Source: Acidobacteriaceae bacterium
GTDB taxonomy: Bacteria; Acidobacteriota; Terriglobia; Terriglobales; Acidobacteriaceae
DNA: 61,305 bases
Assembly (NCBI GenBank): GCA_003138975.1
Contig: PLHQ01000023.1
Location: 1-61,305, forward strand
Reading direction: 5' to 3'
Within the stretch, counting starts at the first letter, position 1, and each line of letters opens with the position of its first letter. A model generated the notes under the pieces. It saw nothing but the letters and a program-made list of their open reading frames with translations, was not told the origin of the DNA and ran no database searches. Shown here piece after piece: positions 5,427-59,649 of this stretch. The translations under genes and the position numbers were made by a program.

Positions 5427-5508
5427 TTCCGAATACCGAGTACCTTGTACCGAGCGAAGATGAGCGCCTGCCGCGGTCTCCGAAGCCAGAAGCTAGCAGC
5501 TAGCTACC
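5425..5508. repeat. Heptamer-period repeat arms between two genes
   Basis: Bases 5425-5452 are four 7-bp units of the form ARTACCG with small changes, beginning inside the upstream stop codon. Bases 5481-5508 are four further 7-bp units of a different type (AGAAGCT, AGCAGCT). The second block ends eight bases before the next ATG at 5516. Same unit length as the repeats at 29104, 33291 and 59564. Confidence 0.6.
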
Positions 5509-5515
5509 TTTTTTC

Positions 5516-26664: not shown

Positions 26665-27951
26665 GTGTCTTCGTCGACTCGCAAACCGGGCATCCACATC
26701 GCATGGACAACGGTCACGTACCGCAGTGTGGCCATGATGATCCTGGCGGGGACGCTGCTATGCTTGCTGGGGATGCGACTGGCCTTTCCGCAGTTTACCG
26801 AGAGCAGCATCAAGGCGGCCGACGGCGTGGCCAACAAAGTATTGGAGCGCGTGGCAGGCATGGCTCCTCCTGCGGGTAGTGGCCTCTCCACGGCGCAACA
26901 GGCTCACTTTACGGCGCTGGATGGTACAGTGCGAGTGAAAAAGGGCAGTAGCAGTAGCTGGCTGGCGGCGGACTACAACGTCCCTCTGGATAAAGGTGAC
27001 GTGGTGCAGACCGGCTCGGAAGGCATGGCGAAGGTGGTATTCAACGACGGCACCAGCTACACCGTGAAACAAGACTCGCTGATTGTGATTGAAGAAAACT
27101 CGGCCAACGATCAGCAGCAGACGAATGTGGCTGTGGCGGTGAGTACTGGGACGGTGGATCTTTCGACCGCGACTTATTCCCAGGGTTCGAAATCGCAGGT
27201 GATTGTGGATGGAGCGACGGCATCGCTGGCTCCGGAGTCGATGGCGCAGGTGCACAACGATCCCAAGATGGATCAACACGAGATCCTGATGAAGAAGGGT
27301 GCTGGCGAAGTGACGCGCAACGGGGAGACCGTGCAGTTGGCGAACTGGGAGAAAGTGAGTTTCCGGCAAGAAGAAACGCACATGGAGAAAGCGAAAGGCA
27401 CGGGGCCTCCGACACCGATTTCTCCGGCGAATATGGCGCCGATTTTTACTTCGGGAGAGACGACCAAGGATGTGGAATTTTCCTGGACGCAGATGGCGAA
27501 TGCTTCTGGTTACCGGCTTCGCATATCGAGAAATCCCTACTTTTCTTCTACACTGGTAGATAAGAGAGTGAATACAGCGGATGTTACGGTCACAAGTCTG
27601 GGCGAAGGTGCGTACTACTGGGTGGTACAGTCGTACGAAGCGTCAGGGAAAGAGTCGGTGGAGAGCGAGAAAAATCGCTTCACTATTATTCCCAAGGGCA
27701 AACAGAACGAAGCCATCGACTTGGAACTGGATCCCTTCATTCAGCACGGACATGTGATTGAAGTTACCGGCAAGACGCAAGTCGGGGCCCGGGTGATGGT
27801 GAATGGGCGGGAGGTGCCGATGATCTCCACGGATGGCACGTTCCATTACTTCACGCCGCCGTTGGCCACTGGAGAAGCCGTGATTACGATAACGGCGCAG
27901 ACGTCGCAGGGCGGAGTGAATACGCAGCAAAAGAAAATTATTATCCAGTAG
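26665..27951 (+). CDS. FecR-domain envelope protein
   Basis: A 428-residue protein with one N-terminal membrane segment ([20 protein letters not shown]). Residues about 85-235 are a FecR domain ([36 protein letters not shown]). It is followed by a fibronectin-like segment ([12 protein letters not shown] is at its end) and a C-terminal Ig-like domain starting near [20 protein letters not shown]. In siderophore systems FecR binds TonB receptors and controls sigma factors, but stand-alone FecR proteins of this layout are common in Acidobacteriota with unknown roles. GTG 26665 follows an AAGG site. It sits directly before mreB, so a cell-envelope role is a fair inference. Confidence 0.75.
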
Positions 27952-27986
27952 GTGGCGCAGTAGTCGGTGTAATAAGTTCGTGCAAG

Positions 27987-28000
27987 CCGGGTTTTCCCGG
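27987..28000. terminator. Hairpin between FecR gene and mreB
   Basis: CCGGG and CCCGG pair around a TTTT loop, about 36 bases after the FecR gene stop. It may terminate or reduce read-through into mreB. There is no T tract. Confidence 0.35.
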
Positions 28001-28046
28001 AAGCAGAGCTGTTCGAATAGGCAAAAGCGAGAGAGAAGAGTTCGTC

Positions 28047-29105
28047 ATGTCAAGCAACGGCTTTCATTCATCACGTTCCCATAACCTCAGGTCTTTATTC
28101 AGCCTGTTCTCGAGCGATCTGGCGATCGATCTGGGGACGGCCAACACGTTGGTGTATGCACGCGGCAAGGGCATTGTTGTGAACGAGCCCTCGATTGTCG
28201 CCATCAACAAGAACACCGGCGAAGTGGAGGCCGTGGGCAAAGAGGCGAAAGAAATGCTGGGGCGCACGCCCGGCAACATCGTCGCCATCAAGCCCATGAA
28301 AGACGGCGTGATCGCCGACTTCAAAGTCACCGAGAAGATGCTGAACTATTTCATCCAGAAAGCGCACAACCGGAAGATGCTGGTGCATCCGCGGATTGTG
28401 ATCGGAGTGCCTTCGGAGATCACGCAGGTGGAAAAGCGGGCGGTCATGGACTCCGCGTATCGCGCCAAGGCGAGCGAAGTGCATCTGGTGGAGCAGGCCA
28501 TGGTGGCGGCGATTGGAGCCGGGCTGCCGATTACGGAGCCTAGCGGCAACATGGTGGTCGACATTGGCGGTGGCACGACGGACATCGCCGTGATTTCTTT
28601 GAGTGGCATTGTCTACTCGCGTTCGGTGCGGATGGCCGGCAATCAAATGGACGAAGCCATCATGAATTATCTGAAGCGGAAATATAACCTGCTGATCGGC
28701 GAACGCACGGCCGAGCAGATCAAGATGGAGATCGGTTCCGCGCACCAACTCGACAAGCCGATGACCATGGAGATCAAGGGACGCAACCTGATCGAAGGCG
28801 TGCCCAAGACCATTACGGTGGATGATGGCGAAATCCGCGAGGCGCTCAGCGAGTGCGTTTCGACGATCATGAATGCGATTCGCGTGGCCCTGGAACGGAC
28901 GCCGCCGGAACTTTCGGCGGACATCAGCGACCGCGGCATCGTGCTGACGGGCGGAGGGGCACTGTTGAAGAATCTGGACAAGCGCATTCGCGAAGAAACC
29001 GGGCTGCCGGTTTCCATTGCAGACGATCCGCTGTGCAGCGTGGTACTGGGCACGGGCAAGATGCTCAGCGACTTCAAGCTGCTGCGGAAGATTTCGATCG
29101 AGTAG
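28047..29105 (+). CDS. mreB: Rod-shape-determining actin homologue MreB
   Basis: A 352-residue bacterial actin. It has the phosphate-1 motif [16 protein letters not shown], phosphate-2 [18 protein letters not shown] and the late [15 protein letters not shown], matching MreB length and order closely. It polymerises under the membrane and organises cell-wall elongation through MreC, MreD, PBP2 and RodA, all encoded next to it. The start ATG 28047 follows a GAGAGAGAAGAG site. A short Ser-rich N-terminal extension of about 20 residues precedes the core. A 180-base gap made largely of heptamer repeat arms separates it from mreC. Confidence 0.97.
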
Positions 29106-29278
29106 CTGCGAGTACCGAATTGCGAGTACTGCGACCAGTAGAAGAATTAAGAGAGTATCGCCGCTCCATGCAGACGAACAAAAAGTATGTTCCCGCGGGC
29201 AGCACTTCGTTGCGAGCGTCTGCCATTGCCTTCTGCTTGATGCCTCATTTCGGTGCTTGGTACTGAGTACTCGCAACT
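29104..29278. repeat. Inverted heptamer-repeat element between mreB and mreC
   Basis: The left arm (29104-29138, five 7-bp units such as AGTACCG) starts inside the mreB stop codon. The right arm (29251-29278, four units such as TGGTACT) is its inverted family and ends six bases before the mreC start. About 112 bases of unrelated sequence lie between them. See the corresponding finding. Confidence 0.75.
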
Positions 29279-29284
29279 GACGTT

Positions 29285-30649
29285 ATGGAATCCGTACTTG
29301 GCCGTTACCGCAATCTGACCATTCTGGTGGGAGTGTTATTTCTGCAGGTGCTGGGACTCGCGGTCCAGGTCAAGCGCACCGGGGACGCGGAGAACACGCG
29401 TCTGATCCGTGTCTGGGCAGTGGATGCGATCACTCCTCTCGAGCGCGCACTGGTGTGGGCGCAGAACGACACCAGCAATCTCTGGCACAACTATTTCTTC
29501 CTGCGCGGGGTGCGGGCGGAAAACCGCCAACTCAAACAGCAGATCGAGCAGATGCGCCTCGAGCAGGTGCGGCTGAGCGAAGACGCGGAGCAGGCCCACC
29601 GTTTGCAGCAGTTGCTGTCTTTTAAAGAGCAGGTCATCGCCAAGACGGTCCCAGCGCAGGTGATTGGGTCGAGCGGTAGCGATCTGTCACGGTCCATCTA
29701 TATCGATAAGGGTTCGAATGAAGGTATTGCAACCGACATGGCGGTGATTACGGCGGGTGGCATCGTGGGCAAAGTATTGCGGGTGTACCCTTCGACTTCG
29801 TTAGTTCTGATGATCAACGACCAGACCAGCGGAGTGGGCGCGATGCTGGAGAAGTCACGGTTACAGGGCGTGCTCAAAGGAACTCCTGACGGGGCGGTGA
29901 TTTTAGAAAGGGTGATGAGCGACGAGCAAGTCGCCCCCGGCGACACTGTGCTGAGCAGCGGAGGTGACCAGATTTTTCCCAAGGGACTGCCGGTGGGCAC
30001 AGTCACCAAGGTTAGCCCGGGGCGGGAAATGTTCTTGAAGATCGAGGTGAAGCCGGCGGCCGATCTGAGCCGTCTGGAAGAAGTGCTGGTGGTTACGGAA
30101 AAGCAGGAACAGAATGCGGTGGTCGACAGCGGGGTCCGAGTGCGCGCGGCCGACATTTTGGCGCAGCGGTTGCCGTCGGTTCCGGACAAGCCGGTGGCGG
30201 ATGCGGCGGCTGCAGCGGGTGCCTCGGGAACCGATAAGGTGGTCCCGCCGGGACAAGAGACGGGCGCTGGCACAAAACCGCTGACTCCGGTTGAGAGTTC
30301 GGTGAAACCTGAGGCTGCTCAACACGCTGCGACGCCGTCTATCGCCAAGTTTGCGGGCGTTGGCCCGACGGCTGCGACTCCAGCTGGCGCGAAGGCTGTG
30401 AGCACTGGTAGTGCGCAGGGTGTGCCAGTCAACGGGCAGACCGGGAACAGCCAGACCGGGAACAGCCAAGCTGCAAAGAAAACTGCGCCTAAGCCGGCTT
30501 CCGGCGATCCAGTAGTGAATAGCGGTTCTCCAAACGCGGCCGCATCAAATGCCGCGGGCGGGTTGGCGAAACCTGCAACGGCGCGGCCCAAACCTCCCGT
30601 CACACAGCCTAATCCTCAACCGCCTGCAACGGAAGATAATCCCAACTAG
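29285..30649 (+). CDS. mreC: Cell-shape protein MreC with long low-complexity tail
   Basis: A 454-residue bitopic membrane protein. A membrane helix near residues 10-25 (LTILVGVLFLQVLGLAVQVK) is followed by a coiled coil at about 65-115 (ENRQLKQQIEQMRLEQVRLS) and the MreC beta-domain (IDKGSNEGIATDMAVITAGG; GTVTKVSPGREMFLKIEVK). These organise PBP2 and other synthases. Beyond residue 290 is an Ala/Pro/Thr/Lys-rich, probably disordered tail of about 160 residues (for example NSQTGNSQAAKKTAPKPAS), not found in the short MreC of model species. Tandem QTGNS units occur in it. Operon with mreB and mreD. Confidence 0.93.
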   Translation: MESVLGRYRNLTILVGVLFLQVLGLAVQVKRTGDAENTRLIRVWAVDAITPLERALVWAQNDTSNLWHNYFFLRGVRAENRQLKQQIEQMRLEQVRLSEDAEQAHRLQQLLSFKEQVIAKTVPAQVIGSSGSDLSRSIYIDKGSNEGIATDMAVITAGGIVGKVLRVYPSTSLVLMINDQTSGVGAMLEKSRLQGVLKGTPDGAVILERVMSDEQVAPGDTVLSSGGDQIFPKGLPVGTVTKVSPGREMFLKIEVKPAADLSRLEEVLVVTEKQEQNAVVDSGVRVRAADILAQRLPSVPDKPVADAAAAAGASGTDKVVPPGQETGAGTKPLTPVESSVKPEAAQHAATPSIAKFAGVGPTAATPAGAKAVSTGSAQGVPVNGQTGNSQTGNSQAAKKTAPKPASGDPVVNSGSPNAAASNAAGGLAKPATARPKPPVTQPNPQPPATEDNPN

Positions 30650-30650
30650 C

Positions 30651-31169
30651 GTGCCCATCACTTACACATCAGGGGAGCAGATTGAGGTTTACCGGTTCAG
30701 CATACCGGTAACGGTGGGCGTGCCATTGCTGGCGCTGTTTCTGCAAGCGTTCGTGCCCAGACGTCTTCCGTTCTTTTCCATCTTCGACTTGCCGTTGCTG
30801 GTGACGATTTTCTTTGCCATGGCGCGGCGGAATCCGATTTCGGGCCTCTTCACCGGGGCAGCCATTGGCCTGGTGCAGGACATGCTGGGGGCTTATCCGA
30901 TCGGAATCTACGGTATCGCCAAGACGGTGGTGGGTTACGGGGCGTCGTCGCTGGGCGCGAAGCTGGATGTCGAGAACGCTGGCGCGCGGCTGCTGGTCAC
31001 GCTGGGGTTCTACCTGTTGCACCAGGCGGTTTACTTCACGGTTGCCCGCGGCATGGTCAGTCTGACGCTGAATTGGAGCTGGAGCCGGGAAATCCTGGCC
31101 GGGCTGGCGAACGCTGTTCTCGGCGTGGGCTTGTATTTTCTGCTGGATAGATTTAAGCAGAGAACTTGA
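30651..31169 (+). CDS. mreD: Rod-shape-determining membrane protein MreD
   Basis: A 172-residue polytopic membrane protein with about five helices (for example VPLLALFLQAFVP, FDLPLLVTIFFAMAR and LLVTLGFYLLHQAVYF). Sequence conservation in MreD is low; the call rests on position directly after mreC, size, and the motif GLFTGAAIGLVQDMLGAYPIG, which resembles the conserved G-x-x-x-G-x-x-x-D-x-L region. GTG 30651 is used, one base after the mreC stop, rather than an earlier ATG inside mreC. Works with MreB and MreC to direct lateral wall synthesis. Confidence 0.88.
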   Translation: MPITYTSGEQIEVYRFSIPVTVGVPLLALFLQAFVPRRLPFFSIFDLPLLVTIFFAMARRNPISGLFTGAAIGLVQDMLGAYPIGIYGIAKTVVGYGASSLGAKLDVENAGARLLVTLGFYLLHQAVYFTVARGMVSLTLNWSWSREILAGLANAVLGVGLYFLLDRFKQRT

Positions 31170-31170
31170 A

Positions 31171-31340
31171 AGACAGGTCTCAGTTTTCAGCCAGAGCGAG
31201 CCGTGACTTACGTTACTTTCCGACCTCCCGGATCAGGTCCCTTAAGAGCTAGAATTGGTATACACCCCTCACTGAGACTGAAGAGGCTGCGACCCGCATG
31301 GCGAGTCGTGTATGAACAAAGAACCGAGAACTGAGAACGG
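31171..31340. repeat. Inverted heptamer-repeat element between mreD and mrdA
   Basis: The left arm (31171-31198; units such as TCTCAGT) begins two bases after the mreD stop. The right arm (31316-31340; units such as ACTGAGA) is its inverted form and runs directly into the mrdA ATG at 31341, supplying the purine-rich sequence before it. About 117 bases lie between. Confidence 0.65.
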
Positions 31341-33332
31341 ATGTTCGGTCGTGACGAAAAAGTATCGGCAATCCGCCTAACGGCGGCGCAGTACCTGATC
31401 CTGGGTATCTTCCTTGTGCTGGCTTACGGATTGTGGCGGCTGCAGGTAATGCAGACCGATCTGTACGCTACGCTTGCCGAAAAGAACCGTATCCGCAATG
31501 TGCCGATTCTGGCGCCCCGCGGCAAGATTCTGGACCGCGAAGGGCGCATCATCGTGGACAACTATCCGTCCTTTTCGGCTTTGCTGTTGCGCGATTCTTC
31601 CCGTGACCTGAATGCTGACACGGATCTGATTGCGCAAGGTCTGCATCTGGATGCGAATGAAGTACGGGCGCGCATTCGCCACTTCGCTGCCATGCCGCAG
31701 TACCAGCCGATCTTTCTGAAGGAAGACATCACGCCGGATGAGCAGGCCTTCATCGAGGCGCATCGCAACGAGCTGCCTGAACTGGACACGATCAGGGCGG
31801 ACCGGCGTCTGTATCCGCGCAACGGGTTCATGGCGCACCTGATTGGCTACGTCGGCGAAGTGACGGAAGACATGCTCAACCAGCCACAGTTCGAACTTTA
31901 TAGCCCAGGCGATGTGGTGGGAGTTTCTGGCGTGGAGCGGCAGTATAACAACGCGTTAATGGGAAAGAACGGAGCGCGGCAGGAATTGGTGAACAGTCAT
32001 GGCCGCGAAGTGGGGCTGTTGGGGGAAACGGATGCGATTCCCGGAAAACAGTTGAAGCTTACGGTCGACATTGACTTACAGATCGCAGCCGAGGAAGCGC
32101 TGGAAGGGAAGAATGGCGCAATCGTCGCGATGGATCCGCGGACCGGGGAAATTCTGGCGATGGTGAGCCGGCCGACATTCGATCCCAACGATTTTGCCGT
32201 ACGCGTCTCTCGCGACGAATGGAACAAGCTGGTTACGGACCCGGACAAGCCGCTGTTGAACAAAGCGATTCAGGCGCAGCTTGCGCCGGGTTCGACCTTC
32301 AAGATCATCATGTCGGTCGCGGGTTGGCAGGAAGGAATCGCACAAGACCTGCACGTGAACTGCACCGGCGGAGCGGAGTTCTACGGACGTCGCTTTGGCT
32401 GCTGGGTGAAAAGCGGGCACGGCCCCGTCACTCTGGAGAAAGCCATCTACCAGTCCTGTGACGTGTTCTTTTATACTCTGGCGGAAAAGTTAGGCATCGA
32501 CCGCATCGCCAAATACGCTACCGCTCTTGGTCTGGGACAGAAAACCGGCATTGACCTGCCCAACGAAGTGACCGGAGTGATGCCCTCGGAGGAGTGGAAG
32601 ATTCGGAACTTCAAACAGAAGTGGTTCGCCGGGGAAACGATTTCGGTGGGCATCGGGCAGGGCGCGGTGGCAATCACGCCGGTGCAATTGATGCGCGCGA
32701 TCGCCGCGATCTCCATGGGCGGCCGCCTGGTTGTGCCCCACGTCGTCGATCCGCAAGAGCTCCCCAGCGGATACGTCGAGACGAGTCATGTTACGGAAAC
32801 GAAGAACGTTCCTATCGATCCGAACGGGTGGACCTTTATTACCGATGCGATGTCGCGGGTTCTGCTGCCGGAAGGCACTGCTCCTTCGGCGCATATTCCT
32901 GGGATTGATATAGCAGGAAAGACGGGATCGGCGCAGATTGTCTCGCTGGCGACTCGCGCCAAGTTCAAGAACAGTGAAGCGCTCAATCAGAATGGATGGT
33001 TCGTCGGATTCACGCCGCGGCGTAATCCCGACGTTATTGTGTGTGTGCTGTTTGAAGGTGGCGAGCACGGAAAGCTGGCGGCGCGTTTGGCGACGCAGGT
33101 GCTTAAGGCGTATGTCGACAAGCAGCGGCGCGTGCCCAATAAGATGGTGGATGCGCCGAAGAGCGATGGCAAAGTTGACATGGGGGCTTTGTGGACTGCG
33201 CCCGAGGGGGACAAGCTGGAGGGCGGACGGTTCTCTCTGATTTTACCGAAGAAGCCGTCGGTGCTGGCGACTGCTGCTCCAGGCATGGCCAGTACCGAGT
33301 ACCTAGTACCGAATACCGGGAAAATGCAATGA
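31341..33332 (+). CDS. mrdA: Penicillin-binding protein 2 (elongation transpeptidase)
   Basis: A 663-residue class B PBP. A membrane anchor at residues 15-32 (AQYLILGIFLVLAYGLWRLQ) and the dimerisation domain (LAPRGKILDREGRIIVDNYP) precede the transpeptidase. The active-site serine is Ser318 in PGSTFKI; SCD in YQSCDVFFYTLAEKLGI and KTG in AGKTGSAQI complete the penicillin-binding triad. With RodA it makes lateral peptidoglycan. The last 15 or so codons, STEYLVPNTGKMQ, are translated from heptamer repeat DNA that entered the gene end, so the native protein probably ended earlier. Second gene pair of the rod operon. Confidence 0.95.
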   Translation: MFGRDEKVSAIRLTAAQYLILGIFLVLAYGLWRLQVMQTDLYATLAEKNRIRNVPILAPRGKILDREGRIIVDNYPSFSALLLRDSSRDLNADTDLIAQGLHLDANEVRARIRHFAAMPQYQPIFLKEDITPDEQAFIEAHRNELPELDTIRADRRLYPRNGFMAHLIGYVGEVTEDMLNQPQFELYSPGDVVGVSGVERQYNNALMGKNGARQELVNSHGREVGLLGETDAIPGKQLKLTVDIDLQIAAEEALEGKNGAIVAMDPRTGEILAMVSRPTFDPNDFAVRVSRDEWNKLVTDPDKPLLNKAIQAQLAPGSTFKIIMSVAGWQEGIAQDLHVNCTGGAEFYGRRFGCWVKSGHGPVTLEKAIYQSCDVFFYTLAEKLGIDRIAKYATALGLGQKTGIDLPNEVTGVMPSEEWKIRNFKQKWFAGETISVGIGQGAVAITPVQLMRAIAAISMGGRLVVPHVVDPQELPSGYVETSHVTETKNVPIDPNGWTFITDAMSRVLLPEGTAPSAHIPGIDIAGKTGSAQIVSLATRAKFKNSEALNQNGWFVGFTPRRNPDVIVCVLFEGGEHGKLAARLATQVLKAYVDKQRRVPNKMVDAPKSDGKVDMGALWTAPEGDKLEGGRFSLILPKKPSVLATAAPGMASTEYLVPNTGKMQ

Positions 33333-33401
33333 GGACAATCGGCGAGGGAAATCTGCGGATGGAGGGAGTTGCTCGGTACTCGATACTGGGTGCTCAGAAC
33401 T
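33291..33401. repeat. Inverted heptamer-repeat element between mrdA and rodA
   Basis: The left arm (33291-33318) is four near-perfect ARTACCG units inside the end of mrdA. The right arm (33374-33401; four units ending ACT, such as CGGTACT) is the inverse complement family and stops one base before the rodA ATG at 33403. CGGTACT is the exact reverse complement of AGTACCG. Confidence 0.8.
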
Positions 33402-33402
33402 C

Positions 33403-34500
33403 ATGAGCCGTTACGTTTCATATCGCGATTTCGACTGGCTGCTGCTGGTCTTGGTGCTCATGATCTGTGGGCTGGGCGTGATGGAGATCCGAAGCGCCAC
33501 AATGCACACCAAGTTTGCTGGGTCGCACATCAAGCAGATTTACTGGGTTTTCGCCGGCGTGGGGATGATGTTTTTGATCAGTCTGGTCAATTATCAGGCG
33601 CTCTTGGACAGAATCCACTGGTTTTACATTGCGGCGGTCGCGTCGCTGATGGCCGTGATGATCTTTGGACAGAAATACTTAGGAGCGCGGCGTTGGATTA
33701 AAATGCCCGGCGGCAACCACTTCCAGCCTTCCGAATGGGTGAAGCTGATCCTCATTCTCGCCGTGGCGAAGTATTTTGCCGATCTCCGGCACCGGGAACT
33801 TTCCTGGCCGGACTTCATGAAAGCCGGAGCAATCGTCGGCATTCCAATGCTGATGGTGCTGGCGCAGCCTGATCTGGGGACGGCTCTCACTTATATTCCC
33901 ATCGCCATTATGGGAGTTTTCCTGGGCGGAATGCAGTGGAAACAAGGATTGGCGGTGGCTCTGCTTGCGGCGGTAGGCGTGGGAGCGGTGTTCTTCACCC
34001 CGCGAGTGCACATTCTAAAGACTTACCAGAAGCAGCGGCTGACCAGCTTTCTGCAGCCGGAAGACGATCCTCAGGGGTCGGGGTACCAAGTTGAGCAATC
34101 CAAGATTGCCGTGGGCTCTGGGGGATTGTGGGGTGGGAAAGGCTCGCAAACTCACGGGGCGTTCCTGCCAGTTCCACAAACGGACTTCATTTTCGCGGCA
34201 TTCTCCGAGGAGCACGGATTCGTGGGCGCACTCGGGGTTCTGCTGTTATACTTCATAGTGCTGATGCGTTTGACCCAGAACGCGCAAACAGCGCCCGACC
34301 GCGCTGGCACGTTCGTCGTGATGGGTGTGGTGGCGGTGCTTAGCTTCCATATCCTGGTCAATGTTGGCATGGTGGTCGGTTTTATGCCGGTCACTGGAAT
34401 ACCTCTGCCGCTGATGAGTTACGGTGGGTCTTCCGTTCTGTTCATGTTCCTGGCGCTGGGGATGGTAATGAATGTTCGAATGCGCCGGTTTGTGAATTAG
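33403..34500 (+). CDS. rodA: RodA peptidoglycan glycosyltransferase
   Basis: A 365-residue SEDS-family membrane enzyme with ten predicted helices. It polymerises lipid II into glycan strands during elongation, paired with PBP2. The family motif LGARRWIKMPGGNHFQPSEW is seen near residue 90, with the conserved large extracytoplasmic loop region GSGYQVEQSKIAVGSGGLWG and FSEEHGFVGALGVLL containing the catalytic-region acidic residue. MTGIPLPLMSYGGSS is present near the C-terminus. It lies one base after the right repeat arm and is followed by a long untranslated stretch before the RNase gene. Confidence 0.95.
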   Translation: MSRYVSYRDFDWLLLVLVLMICGLGVMEIRSATMHTKFAGSHIKQIYWVFAGVGMMFLISLVNYQALLDRIHWFYIAAVASLMAVMIFGQKYLGARRWIKMPGGNHFQPSEWVKLILILAVAKYFADLRHRELSWPDFMKAGAIVGIPMLMVLAQPDLGTALTYIPIAIMGVFLGGMQWKQGLAVALLAAVGVGAVFFTPRVHILKTYQKQRLTSFLQPEDDPQGSGYQVEQSKIAVGSGGLWGGKGSQTHGAFLPVPQTDFIFAAFSEEHGFVGALGVLLLYFIVLMRLTQNAQTAPDRAGTFVVMGVVAVLSFHILVNVGMVVGFMPVTGIPLPLMSYGGSSVLFMFLALGMVMNVRMRRFVN

Positions 34501-34927
34501 CTGGGTGAGCCAGCTAAGGGTTCGTGAAGCTTGAAGTGGGAAGACGGTAGAGAGCAAATTGCTGCGCTCGATGGGCGCAGCCCCAAAAATATCGATCGCC
34601 CTCGCGTAAAGGGGGCATTTCACCGGCCAGTCGAGCAGTTGAAGGCCGGGCAGGATTGACGCAATAACGCTGCCGGCAGGGAAACGGCCCCCCGACCGGA
34701 AACGGTCAGAGAGTGCGGTCACAAACCCGGCAGACGAAAGCGAATAGTGCAGAAGATACCCAAGCTTGTGCAGCGGATTCGGTCAGGGAGCAACCTCCCA
34801 GGCCCTAGCCGTCCCTCCTCCGGGGCCAGCATCGCGACGCTCGATATCCTCCCGTTTCCTTCCTCGCTTCGCCCCGGTGAAGCCCGCCCGACTTTCGTAC
34901 ATTAGTCAGGGCGGGACCGGAGTGTCC
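34501..34927 (+). ncRNA. Gene-free, highly structured leader upstream of the RNase E/G gene
   Basis: This 427-base stretch has no convincing reading frame; a frame from 34766 joins the RNase gene but looks non-coding. Predicted hairpins include GCTGCGC/GCGCAGC (34561-34567 and 34575-34581), GCCGG-G-CAG with CTGCCGGC (34644-34677), and GACCG-GAAA-CGGTC (34694-34707), a GNRA-type tetraloop. I tested it by eye against RNase P RNA, tmRNA, SRP RNA and cyclic-di-GMP riboswitch patterns without a match. It may be an autoregulatory 5' leader, as known for E. coli rne, or an independent small RNA. Confidence 0.4.
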
Positions 34928-37711
34928 ATGAATAAAGAGTTGTTTGTTTCTTCCACGCCTCACGAGACCAAAGTGGGCCTGGTGGAGGACGATCTGCTCG
35001 CGGAAATCTACCTCGAGCGCGAAAATGAATATACCCTGGCGGGGTCCATCTACAAAGGCCGTGTGACCCGTGTGCTGCCAGGAATGCAATCGGCCTTCGT
35101 TGACATCGGCCTGGAGCGCGATGCCTTCCTCTACGTTTCCGACTTTATGGAGTTGGAAGAGCACGACGAGGATGTGACGGACGTCGTACCGGCCAGTCGA
35201 GGCGTACAGGATTTGCGGGTGCAGCCGAGTCACGAGGAAGACGAGACTTCCATTGTGTCAGCGACTCAAGGAGATGGCGCAGCCGAGACGGCAACGAGGT
35301 TTGAGGGGGAAGAGAGCCGGTATCTTGATGGAGCCGACGAACATGTGGACGGCCAACCGTCGATAGCGGCCGCAGCTTCCGTGGAAACTTCCGGCGGCAG
35401 GGATTCTCAAGAGCGTGAACGCGGAGGCTGGCGGGGTCGCCGGCGTCGTCGTGGCGGACGTCGCGATGGACGCAGCGATGGGCGTGACCGAGCTGCAGAG
35501 CCGCGCTTGGCAACGCCAACGGTGGAAAGTGCGCCGCCTGTAACAGCTCCGCGTCAGCAAGAATCCAGCAGAAGCCATCAGTTTGGACCGCCAGCGGGAT
35601 ACCAGCCGATCCTTCTTCCGGGAGAATCAATTTCCAAGTATCGTGGGTTAGCGCAGCCTCCCATAACGCAGCCGTCACGTGCGCAAGATCGAGGCTTCGA
35701 GCGAGCTAGCGAATTGGGGGCCGAATCTGCCGCGCCGATCGCCGCCACTTTCCCGGACGACGAACCGATTTTCGCCGCCCCTGCCGTCGAGTTGCAGGCT
35801 GAGCAGCACGAGGACGTGCAGCCTGTTCACGAAAAACCCATAGAGTCGGCTGCAACTTCAGTGGACTGGAATCGCGAATTTCACCGGCGGGATTCGGTGG
35901 CTGCTGGAGCGGCTGCGGCGCCTGCGAAGGGAACTCAGACGATTCGAGACGTTGTCGAGGAAGACGATGAGATGGTACCTGCCCCCGAGGCTTCTGATCG
36001 GGCTGTGGCTCCGGCGCAGGAACAGGTTGCGGCTTTCGCACGCCCAGGGACGCTGGAAGAGGAGACCATCGACGAAGAAGAAGCGGATACCGTCCGCTAC
36101 GAACAGGCGTCGGATGAAGGCTATGACGAGTTTGAAGAGGAGACGCGAGCTGCCGGCCAGCAAGGTTCGGAGCCTGCACCGCGCGAGTTTTCTGAAGTCC
36201 GCGAAACGGTAGATGAGATCCATATGACGTCTTTGGCGGAGTCTGGTGCGGCGCCTGCGGAAGGTGTGGTGGAGAGTGAGGAAGACCCCGAGGAACTGGA
36301 ACTCGAAGAAGCGCAAGCCCAAGCGGAGGCGTTGCTCGATGCGGAAGCGGGCGGCAGCGTTGTGGTCGATGGGCGGGCCGAGGTTCGTGCTCCGGCAGGG
36401 ACGGCAGGTTACACGCAGCGAGCGCCTCGTCCTCGACCCGGCTTTGACCGTCGTAGTGGCGGACGCCGGGCTGGTGGGCGCCGCTTCCCACGTCGAGAGT
36501 CGCATGAAGTTCCGAAGATCAGCGATCTTCTAAAAGAAGGTCAGGAAATTCTGGTACAGATTGCGAAGGAGCCTATCGGCAAGAAGGGCGCGCGCATCAC
36601 CAGTCACATCGCGCTGCCGGGACGGTTTTTGGTGTACATGCCGACGGTGAACCATACCGGAGTTTCGCGCAAGATCGCGTCGGATGAGGAGCGCCAGCGG
36701 CTGAAGCGCATTGTGATGAGCGAGCGCGACAATGGCCATGGTGGCTTCATCGTGCGGACCGCCGCACAAAGTGCGAATGAAGAGGAATTGCGGGCGGATA
36801 TCCGCTTTCTGAAGGGCCTGTGGAACGACATTAAGACCCGCGCCGAGGCATCCAAGCCGCCGGCGTTGATCTATCACGACCTCAATGTGGTAGAGCGAGT
36901 TCTGCGAGATCAGGTTACGTCGGACTTCTCCGTGATCTGGGTTGACACCGAACCGGAGTATGAGCGCATCCTGCGTTTCTTCAACCGCTTTCAGCCTGGG
37001 CTGGTGAAGCGGGTGAAGCTTTATACCAAGGAGACGCCGCTGTTCGAGCAGTTCGGTTTGACCGAGGAGATGAACAAGGCGCTCAAGTCGAAGGTGTGGC
37101 TGAAGAGCGGCGGCTACATCGTGATCAACCAGACCGAGGCGCTGGTGGCAATCGACATCAATACCGGCAAGTATGTCGGCAAGACCTCGCGGCTGGAAGA
37201 TACCATCGTTAAAACCAACGTGGACGCGATCAAGGAGATCGTGCGGCAGGTTCGTCTGCGCGATCTCGGCGGCATCATCATCATCGACTTCATCGATATG
37301 GATGAGCGACGCAACCGCCAGCGCGTGATGCAGGCGTTGGAAGAAGAACTCCGGCATGATCGGGCGCCGTCGAAGGTGCTGCAGTTCAACGATTTCGGGC
37401 TGGTCGCGATTACCCGAAAACGGGTGAAGCAATCGCTGGAACGCACCATTGGCGCGCCTTGTCCCTACTGCCAATCCACTGGCTACGTGAAGTCGCTGAC
37501 CACGGTGGTCAATGAGATTTACGTGGAGATGCGCAAGATCGCGAAGCATCTGGAACACGAAGACGTGATGCTGCGCGTGAATCCCGATGTGGCAAAGGAG
37601 TTGAAGACCAACAATGGCCGCCTGCTGAACGAGATGGAAGAACTCACAAAGCGGACGATCATTGTGAAGAGCGATCCGGCGCTGCACCAGGAGCAGTTCG
37701 ACATTAACTAG
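34928..37711 (+). CDS. rng: RNase E/G family endoribonuclease with a large S1-domain insertion
   Basis: About 927 residues. Residues 1-80 begin the S1 RNA-binding domain (YKGRVTRVLPGMQSAFVDIG, ERDAFLYVSDF) and it resumes at residue 530 (ISDLLKEGQEILVQIAKEPI). Between is a roughly 450-residue low-complexity insertion, mostly acidic, with Arg/Gly-rich patches near each end (GWRGRRRRRGGRRDGRSDGR and FDRRSGGRRAGGRRFPRR). After it come the 5'-sensor and DNase I-like catalytic regions (YIVINQTEALVAIDINTGKY, IIIIDFIDMDE with metal-binding Asp) and the Zn-link CPYCQSTG. It processes mRNA and rRNA. ATG 34928 is chosen because the family N-terminus starts there. The gene name is by family; it could equally be called rne. 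Confidence 0.93.
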   Translation: MNKELFVSSTPHETKVGLVEDDLLAEIYLERENEYTLAGSIYKGRVTRVLPGMQSAFVDIGLERDAFLYVSDFMELEEHDEDVTDVVPASRGVQDLRVQPSHEEDETSIVSATQGDGAAETATRFEGEESRYLDGADEHVDGQPSIAAAASVETSGGRDSQERERGGWRGRRRRRGGRRDGRSDGRDRAAEPRLATPTVESAPPVTAPRQQESSRSHQFGPPAGYQPILLPGESISKYRGLAQPPITQPSRAQDRGFERASELGAESAAPIAATFPDDEPIFAAPAVELQAEQHEDVQPVHEKPIESAATSVDWNREFHRRDSVAAGAAAAPAKGTQTIRDVVEEDDEMVPAPEASDRAVAPAQEQVAAFARPGTLEEETIDEEEADTVRYEQASDEGYDEFEEETRAAGQQGSEPAPREFSEVRETVDEIHMTSLAESGAAPAEGVVESEEDPEELELEEAQAQAEALLDAEAGGSVVVDGRAEVRAPAGTAGYTQRAPRPRPGFDRRSGGRRAGGRRFPRRESHEVPKISDLLKEGQEILVQIAKEPIGKKGARITSHIALPGRFLVYMPTVNHTGVSRKIASDEERQRLKRIVMSERDNGHGGFIVRTAAQSANEEELRADIRFLKGLWNDIKTRAEASKPPALIYHDLNVVERVLRDQVTSDFSVIWVDTEPEYERILRFFNRFQPGLVKRVKLYTKETPLFEQFGLTEEMNKALKSKVWLKSGGYIVINQTEALVAIDINTGKYVGKTSRLEDTIVKTNVDAIKEIVRQVRLRDLGGIIIIDFIDMDERRNRQRVMQALEEELRHDRAPSKVLQFNDFGLVAITRKRVKQSLERTIGAPCPYCQSTGYVKSLTTVVNEIYVEMRKIAKHLEHEDVMLRVNPDVAKELKTNNGRLLNEMEELTKRTIIVKSDPALHQEQFDIN

Positions 37712-59563: not shown

Positions 59564-59649
59564 GAATTGCCGATTGTCGATTTCCAGTTGCCGAATGGGT
59601 GGTGCCCCGGTTCCGATCGGAAATTGGAAATTGGTAATCGAAAATCATG
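59564..59649. repeat. Inverted heptamer-repeat element between gcvH and gcvPA
   Basis: Left arm (59564-59598): five 7-bp units such as CGATTGT, beginning two bases after the gcvH stop. Right arm (59615-59649): five units such as AATTGGA, the inverted family. Only 16 bases separate the arms. Confidence 0.75.

Follow-up and report, generated by a model that had tools for sequence, protein, structure and literature searches.

The cyanobacterial short tandemly repeated repetitive (STRR) sequences have the heptamer CCCCAGT as their unit, and IVP/S23p (PF05635; IVP below) is a four-helix-bundle protein otherwise known from the intervening sequences (IVSs) of 23S rRNA genes. Both are relevant to a 61,305-nt stretch of the genome of an Acidobacteriaceae bacterium (assembly GCA_003138975.1, contig PLHQ01000023.1, positions 1 to 61,305; hereafter the window), in which three gene gaps of the rod-shape operon are bounded by arms of degenerate heptamer units, the right arm inverted relative to the left. 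The original prediction, made from the window sequence, named STRR repeats as the nearest precedent, a fair comparison, although two systems in the literature examined are closer: one is the paired heptamers found in Xanthomonas and Nostoc (PMC4692102), the other a 23S rRNA IVS that contains heptamers (PMC4990558).

In Xanthomonas and Nostoc, Rehm et al. 2015 described inverted pairs of GGGAATC and GGGGA(C/T)T heptamers, with 70 and 75 convergent pairs in two Xanthomonas genomes, mostly 0–50 bp from the ends of open reading frames (ORFs) (PMC4692102). The arrays studied here are likewise degenerate tandem heptamers that form convergent pairs near ORF ends and are scarce between divergent ORFs, but those genomes each use one G-rich unit, whereas here many units occur per genome and the unit switches at one gap. 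The main text of that paper names no partner protein, the terms S23, intervening and four helix having no occurrence in it. The 23S rRNA IVS, of 428 nt, has a 28-bp stem and tandem heptamers upstream of an S23p ORF, is excised by RNase III in vitro and has been termed a selfish element (PMC4990558). Stem-forming terminal inverted repeats with heptamers are common to both systems, though weak at sites 1 and 2 of the window; unlike the IVS, the elements here are found between protein-coding genes, the window's own have no S23p ORF, and cutting by RNase III would be by analogy. In marine Beggiatoaceae, TAACTGA repeats mostly end 1 nt before start codons, mostly without a ribosome-binding site (MacGregor 2015; PMC4679880), and the right arms here similarly end at starts; the Beggiatoaceae repeats differ in using one unit, in direct sets with a single inverted case, and a role in translational regulation was proposed for them. 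In the P6b stems of Nostoc trnL, one repeat class takes the place of another, and indels of seven nucleotides occur (PMC4476775). STRR and P6b repeats resemble the present arms in their short units and differ as dispersed repeats or an intron stem, and no link of either to IVP was found in the literature examined.

We consider it probable that the arm pairs are the terminal inverted heptamer arrays of small intergenic elements, ORF-less relatives of those that carry IVP; the elements of the window are called relatives, not members, because an IVP ORF does not fit into their gaps. The original prediction had left slippage, a mobile element and selection on RNA folding as alternatives, and an element is favoured because such arms flank IVP genes. 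The arms of the window are:

29107..29133, + strand: site 1 left arm (mreB/mreC gap), degenerate GCGAGTA/CCGAATT/GCGAGTA/CTGCGA units directly after the mreB stop codon, with an inverted partner at 29267-29278
29253..29279, + strand: site 1 right arm, ending 5 nt upstream of the mreC ATG (29285); in the predicted RNA structure it pairs with the left arm
31178..31190, + strand: site 2 left arm (mreD/mrdA gap), about 2 units of TCTCAGT type, complementarity score 9
31314..31341, + strand: site 2 right arm, GAACAAAGAACCGAGAACTGAGAACGGA, reaching the mrdA ATG (31341), with at least 17/21 matches at period 7
33289..33319, + strand: site 3 left arm, CCAGTACCGAGTACCTAGTACCGAATACCGG, within the 3' end of mrdA, complementarity score 17
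33367..33402, + strand: site 3 right arm, ending in CTCGGTACTCGATACTGGGTGCTCAGAACTC and reaching the rodA ATG (33403), fold z −3.55

Taken alone, the window makes a thin case, and the comparison of relatives is the decisive confirmation. ARTACCG-type and TCTCAGT-type units, inverted across each of the three gaps, are present as predicted, in blocks of 2–4 degenerate units where about four had been given. The left blocks had been placed inside or within two bases of the upstream stop codon, but that of site 2 starts 8 nt after the stop and that of site 3 lies inside mrdA. The inverted arms are real, but as partners within the window they are clear at site 3 and weak at site 1 (best complementary stretch score 11, 29120-29130 with 29266-29276) and site 2 (score 9, 31178-31188 with 31326-31336), where ends swapped between species average 7.4 and 8.3, respectively. 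The folding check that had been proposed gave a divided result, the arms pairing in the predicted RNA folds of all three sites but only site 3 folding better than shuffled sequence. The automatic gap survey counts from the called stop codon onwards and registered no pair at any of the three sites within the called gaps; for site 3, a pair emerged only after the search was extended into the end of mrdA. In 33289-33332, the sequence of this site's left arm encodes a tail of MrdA, and for many congeners the protein match stops at about residue 650 of 663.

The link to IVP comes from genes enclosed by arms. A scan of 1.77 Mb yielded five arm pairs around a whole gene, three of which enclose IVP (loci L070, L077 and L122), the remaining two enclosing genes that lie between two neighbouring arm-bearing gaps. 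The three IVP genes match PF05635 at E 1.7e-36 to 6.5e-39 (L122 also TIGR02436), and an arm-enclosed IVP is related to XCC0516 of X. campestris, structure 2gsc, at E 1.1e-16. That known S23p (PMC4990558) fits the IVP link, the protein alone being what represents Xanthomonas in the comparison. A PF05635 search of 41 genomes gave about 105 matches in 33 of them, and 72 acidobacterial loci were tested, comprising 30 supplied by the search, 39 added from the list by match strength and contig room with their flanks unseen, and the three from the arm scan; some are near-identical (e.g. L174/L176) and so not independent, and one from the host genome without a tblastn match (L220) was left out. Complementary flanks (score ≥12 in 160-nt flanks) were present in 53 of the 72, compared with 9 of 216 control genes of ≤700 bp from the host genome (G000) and a relative (G019), scored with 170-nt flanks. 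Heptamer arrays occurred on at least one side in 65/72 versus 18/216 controls (Fisher p 1.8e-39) and on both sides in 44/72 versus 4/216. Plasmids gave a similar picture: from 25 records of plasmid IVP genes, mostly cyanobacterial, 14 were tested (13 cyanobacterial and one from Azospirillum; L223/L227 near-identical), with complementary flanks in 10, an array in 13 and arrays on both sides in nine, while short genes on two of these plasmids scored 2/48, 6/48 and 3/48, respectively. Arms surround IVP genes in Acidobacteriota, in Cyanobacteriota and at one Azospirillum locus.

Arms with and without IVP also draw on one heptamer repertoire. Among 89 clear ORF-less gap arms, 40 are identical to an acidobacterial IVP-flank heptamer and 87 are at most one letter off, compared with means of 3.4 (maximum 8) and 42.4 (maximum 54) for letter-shuffled heptamers; the arm-sharing partner found carries IVP. 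The arms follow the IVP lineage, since the same or nearly the same unit is shared by 67 of 134 IVP pairs more than 60% identical (shuffled mean 6.0, maximum 14) and by 48 of 112 when restricted to pairs below 80% identity (shuffled maximum 13), and 39 of 2374 pairs below 50% identity match in unit. Such joint travel would follow from an action of the protein on the arms, or simply from linkage of the two on one element. Single-linkage clustering of heptamers on the IVP tree was set aside in favour of this pairwise test, as it put 58 of 78 into a single cluster and yielded 17 changes, where shuffling gave at least 18 and on average 19.9.

The content of one orthologous gap, that between ychF and a ZIP-transporter gene, differs between genomes. 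This was the one site compared, with 18 loci fetched, 15 inspected and ychF placed in nine. An IVP gene lies between long AGTTCTC arrays in G011 (857 nt) and with AGTACCG arms in G016 (482 nt), and an IVP gene with arms of AGTTCTC type is also present in G002, ychF being out of reach there. In G014 the gap measures 106 nt and has arms of CACAGAG type but no IVP; it is 105 nt in G007, 99 nt in G006 and about 1–1.3 kb without IVP in G005, G015 and G012, while in G003 it is 37 nt and retains CAGTT...AACTG.

The rod-shape gaps themselves were compared across 80 loci plus the window, the relatives being Terriglobia metagenome-assembled genomes that include several Candidatus Sulfotelmatobacter. The mreB/mreC, mreD/mrdA and mrdA/rodA gaps were placed in 53, 54 and 59 loci and were long enough for the test in 53, 54 and 50, of which 41, 36 and 16, respectively, had own-species ends pairing at a score of ≥10, compared with 16.8%, 20.4% and 6.3% for swapped-species ends. 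Many relatives have long, obvious arms at the first two gaps, with units including AGTACCG, AGTTGCC, AGTTCTC, AGTGGCC, AGTTTCA, AGTCGTT and GGGCTTC, among others. In operon order, the left and right consensus heptamers are at most one letter apart in 17/28, 27/30 and 12/18 loci with arrays on both sides, against 14, 20 and 37% for heptamers compared between loci. The unit nonetheless switches between close species: both arms differ in unit at mreB/mreC in 21 of 31 locus pairs with MrdA 85–90% identical and in 8 of 17 above 90%, and at mreD/mrdA in 48 of 79 and 13 of 20, whereas none of 26 close pairs switched at mrdA/rodA (0/13 in each identity range). The prediction that the arms form a structural class, not copies of one sequence, was right. 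Even the period varies, the mreB/mreC arms of L061, L064 and L129 being best at period 8 on both sides jointly. CACAGAG-type inverted arms with a period of about 8 by eye also occur in gene gaps elsewhere (L034 14496-14654; L240), and in G019 (C4 114361-117103) three gaps carry AGCTTCT arms, so that neighbouring gaps use one unit, the gene between the second and third being one that we take by eye to be nuoK.

A period of seven stands out in the part of the host genome scanned, as the original prediction had anticipated. In 434 kb (20 stretches, seven of them picked for a GAGTAC pattern match, so that density is biased), 11 arrays reached 17/21 matches at period 7, versus zero or one at each of periods 4–6 and 8–13; at longer periods there were three at 14, five at 15 and 0–2 at 16–21. 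Pairing at other gene gaps, also anticipated, was found in a survey of 1049 gaps from the host genome, G019, G025, G039 and the 80 loci, in which genes were called by a home-made caller (390 genes and 86% coding in the 434 kb) and a gap of ≥50 nt counted as paired with a complementarity score of ≥12 and a period-7 or period-8 array. A duplex-energy survey of gap ends had been dropped as noisy, short gaps overlapping and GC hairpins dominating, and local complementarity plus period was used instead. Paired arms were present in 105/695 tandem gaps (host and relatives, including the mre-operon stretch that prompted the study), 8/103 convergent and 0/170 divergent gaps, compared with 5, 0 and 0 once right ends were swapped; away from the mre-operon stretch the counts were 40/520, 6/89 and 0/146. 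The arms sit at gene edges, both outer edges lying ≤20 nt from a gene in 71 of 91 paired arrays (103 minus 12 with a gene between or without a placed neighbour), with medians of 2–5 nt. They are also polar: read in gene sense, stop-side arrays follow RGYNNNN in 81 cases against 5 in reverse and 26 ties, and start-side arrays follow RCY in 87 against 6 and 25. Paired arms impose this polarity on each other, and it is kept by most, not all, single arms and convergent gaps, exceptions including one convergent gap in L042 and three starts adjoining IVP elements in L070, L077 and L122.

Placement of this kind could be read as an RNA stem bridging stop and start, the paired arms allowing translational coupling without a Shine–Dalgarno (SD) site, an account that we judge very unlikely. 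Arms do touch stop and start, and the outgroup mreD/mrdA gap is 8–14 nt in five of six loci with mreD placed (276 nt in the sixth); an SD-like motif precedes 11 of 141 genes with a right arm against 165 of 525 without arms (p 1.5e-9), and 14 of 29 with a left arm only. In RNA, the arms could pair and so place the upstream stop near the downstream start. However, the low SD frequency behind right arms may reflect coupling or an arm merely occupying the place, as arm sequence itself displaces SD-like letters, and left-only and right-only arms exist. Away from the mre stretch, convergent gaps are paired as often as tandem ones yet hold no start, and because convergent pairs exist, coupling cannot be the general reason for the arms. 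Selection on RNA folding between genes is likewise insufficient because it leaves convergent gaps and single arms unexplained. Arrays bound by a regulatory or nucleoid protein, or G-quadruplex repeats of the sort discussed for Xanthomonas and Nostoc, would share the placement near ORF ends and the rarity between divergent ORFs (PMC4692102). With at least 40 consensus units among the 89 pairs, few of them with GGG, neither a common binding motif nor G-quadruplex formation can hold for the class, and we find this explanation barely credible.

The likeness of the two arms extends to their make-up. Mixed units appear on both arms (e.g. L095, L126 and L130), and unit order is alike on both, 77 of 86 gap pairs scoring above unit-shuffled versions (z 11.8; control 49/86, z 1.7). 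This would suit a purely mutational process, with period-7 slippage growing the arrays and template switching (quasi-palindrome correction) keeping the arms alike, no element being involved; slippage of heptamers has already been proposed (PMC4692102), and the arrays are nearly confined to non-coding DNA (3/216 within genes). Such a process nevertheless leaves unexplained both the IVP genes between arms and the link of arms to IVP lineage, and its order signal becomes marginal with end units fixed (z 2.4 for IVP loci and 2.1 for gaps; controls −0.8 and −0.1), so that we regard it as rather unlikely. An early register test was biased by the choice of the best register, and the version with a control gave no excess; position-by-position covariation of the arms is not claimed, the order signal coming mostly from end units.

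Between the arms of site 2 lies a promoter-like core that bears on how the unit is exchanged:

31203..31257, + strand: promoter-like core, GTGACTTACGTTAC box plus TAGAATTG

A like core occurs, with several arm types, in 33 of 53 further loci (34 of 54 including the window), and its pattern has one match in the 434 kb. Core identity was compared after leaving out 6 of the 34 core-bearing loci (the window included) that have no clear unit, and it was higher between loci with the same unit than between loci with different units: 0.60 (n=5) versus 0.46 (n=16) at MrdA identity >90%, 0.54 (n=30) versus 0.43 (n=52) at 85–90%, 0.46 versus 0.43 at 80–85% and 0.51 versus 0.45 at 75–80%, with no difference at 60–75% (0.43 versus 0.42). 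Core subtype is thus partly tied to arm type, which suggests, on sequence comparison, that gap alleles are exchanged between species. It is also conceivable, though unlikely, that the arms are written, not just inherited, with IVP as a distant relative of Avd and a reverse transcriptase or polymerase acting in trans to lay heptamers inward from the gap edges. Each IVP lineage would then have its own heptamer, and arms would be replaceable round a kept core, as at mreD/mrdA. The IVP of L122 matches the bAvd (PF22296) and Avd (NF033474) models weakly (E 2.8e-5 and 4.6e-5, below both curated cut-offs); compared with Avd of diversity-generating retroelements (DGRs), the IVP elements observed, at ~0.4–0.9 kb, are too short for a reverse transcriptase, and the host genome holds seven reverse-transcriptase matches. 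If true, the heptamers of Acidobacteriota and Cyanobacteriota, and perhaps those of Xanthomonas and Beggiatoaceae, would be the traces of such a writing system.

For small intergenic elements related to those of IVP, the reading we prefer, a possible course of events is that they are mobilised by IVP together with some other enzyme and survive through sitting exactly between genes. In a read-through transcript the arms would pair and the gap RNA would be looped out, and RNase III, a gene for which was found in the host genome, may cut the paired arms as in rRNA IVSs; we think that the arms are tolerated because the RNA folds out and is cut in this way.

Several observations weigh against this reading. 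Shuffled sequences fold as well as the RNA of sites 1 and 2 (z −0.63 and +0.26), and the longest stop-free stretches in the window gaps are 59, 54 and 23 aa, leaving no room for an IVP ORF. In the host genome PF05635 has a single weak match (E 3.4e-4) and none over the cut-off, and among the 72 acidobacterial IVP loci 19 have no complementary flanks and seven no array. One core at mreD/mrdA occurs with different arms in different alleles, a pattern not expected from simple insertion of a complete element. At the ychF/ZIP site, the 37-nt gap of G003 with its one-unit palindrome may be an empty site, but may equally be a collapsed element or deletion product, and no target-site duplication was established at this one compared site, where heptamer ends would hide a short duplication. 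The elements of the window look like relics, because two of the pairs are decayed and the genome is without a PF05635 match over the cut-off.

The host genome comprises 5.45 Mb in 223 contigs, the window being part of one. Profile matches bore out the gene names of the original prediction, giving the order mreB, mreC, mreD, mrdA, rodA; the window arms sit between these protein genes and outside any 23S rRNA gene, and Rfam gave no match across 27900-35000. The operon genes and two further array-bearing places in the window are:

28047..29105, + strand: mreB (PF06723, E 2.8e-148), stop codon 29103-29105
29285..30649, + strand: mreC (PF04085, E 6.9e-43)
30654..31169, + strand: mreD (PF04093, E 4.4e-6)
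31341..33332, + strand: mrdA, PBP2-type transpeptidase (PF00905 and PF03717)
33403..34500, + strand: rodA (PF01098, E 4.7e-87)
5427..5515, + strand: a further tandem gap with an array on either side, the two not matching each other, the left of GTACCGA type and the right of AAGCTAG type
59566..59647, + strand: additional paired element, ATTGCCGATTGTCGATTTCC / GGAAATTGGAAATTGGTAATCG, complementarity score 15

Some further features were seen in passing. In the mrdA/rodA gaps of L059, L066, L067, L079, L091 and L109, a separate recurrent sequence, TCCTTCG...CTCAGGATGACA, stands beside the heptamers. L187 has long TCTCAGT-type arrays (~465-620 and 1131-1302) on either side of one IVP gene, with no visible faults, and is apparently young, and on two cyanobacterial plasmids (L222 and L228) cas6 and cas4 flank an IVP gene that has heptamer arrays. 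The weak PF05635 match of the host genome and a reverse-transcriptase match (G000 C155, 86-289 and 1468-1614) lie 1.2 kb apart and may form an Avd/DGR pair. A GTGAY-N4-RTCAC palindrome, resembling CRP/FNR sites, lies 34–73 nt upstream of the IVP start in 11 of 86 IVP loci (L159, L160, L161, L162, L169, L177, L195, L196, L201, L204 and L219); the pattern occurs at 6 of 511 genes in G000 and G019 and in none of the 86 downstream IVP flanks.

Heptamer pairs are a known kind of repeat, while the link to IVP and the switching of units at one gap appear to be new: no literature tying intergenic heptamer pairs to IVP was found among the sources examined, in which PMC4990558 gives heptamers in an rRNA IVS. 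According to the same source, the function of S23p is unassigned, and the function and origin of IVSs are unclear after more than 25 years (PMC4990558). Intergenic heptamers, for their part, have been reported in several phyla with no agreed role. The IVP link makes these two problems testable together, since it offers the repeats a candidate partner gene and the protein a candidate recognition site, with an arm unit that follows the protein lineage. The rod-shape operon is also unusual in that the paired structure persists at orthologous gaps although close relatives exchange its sequence.

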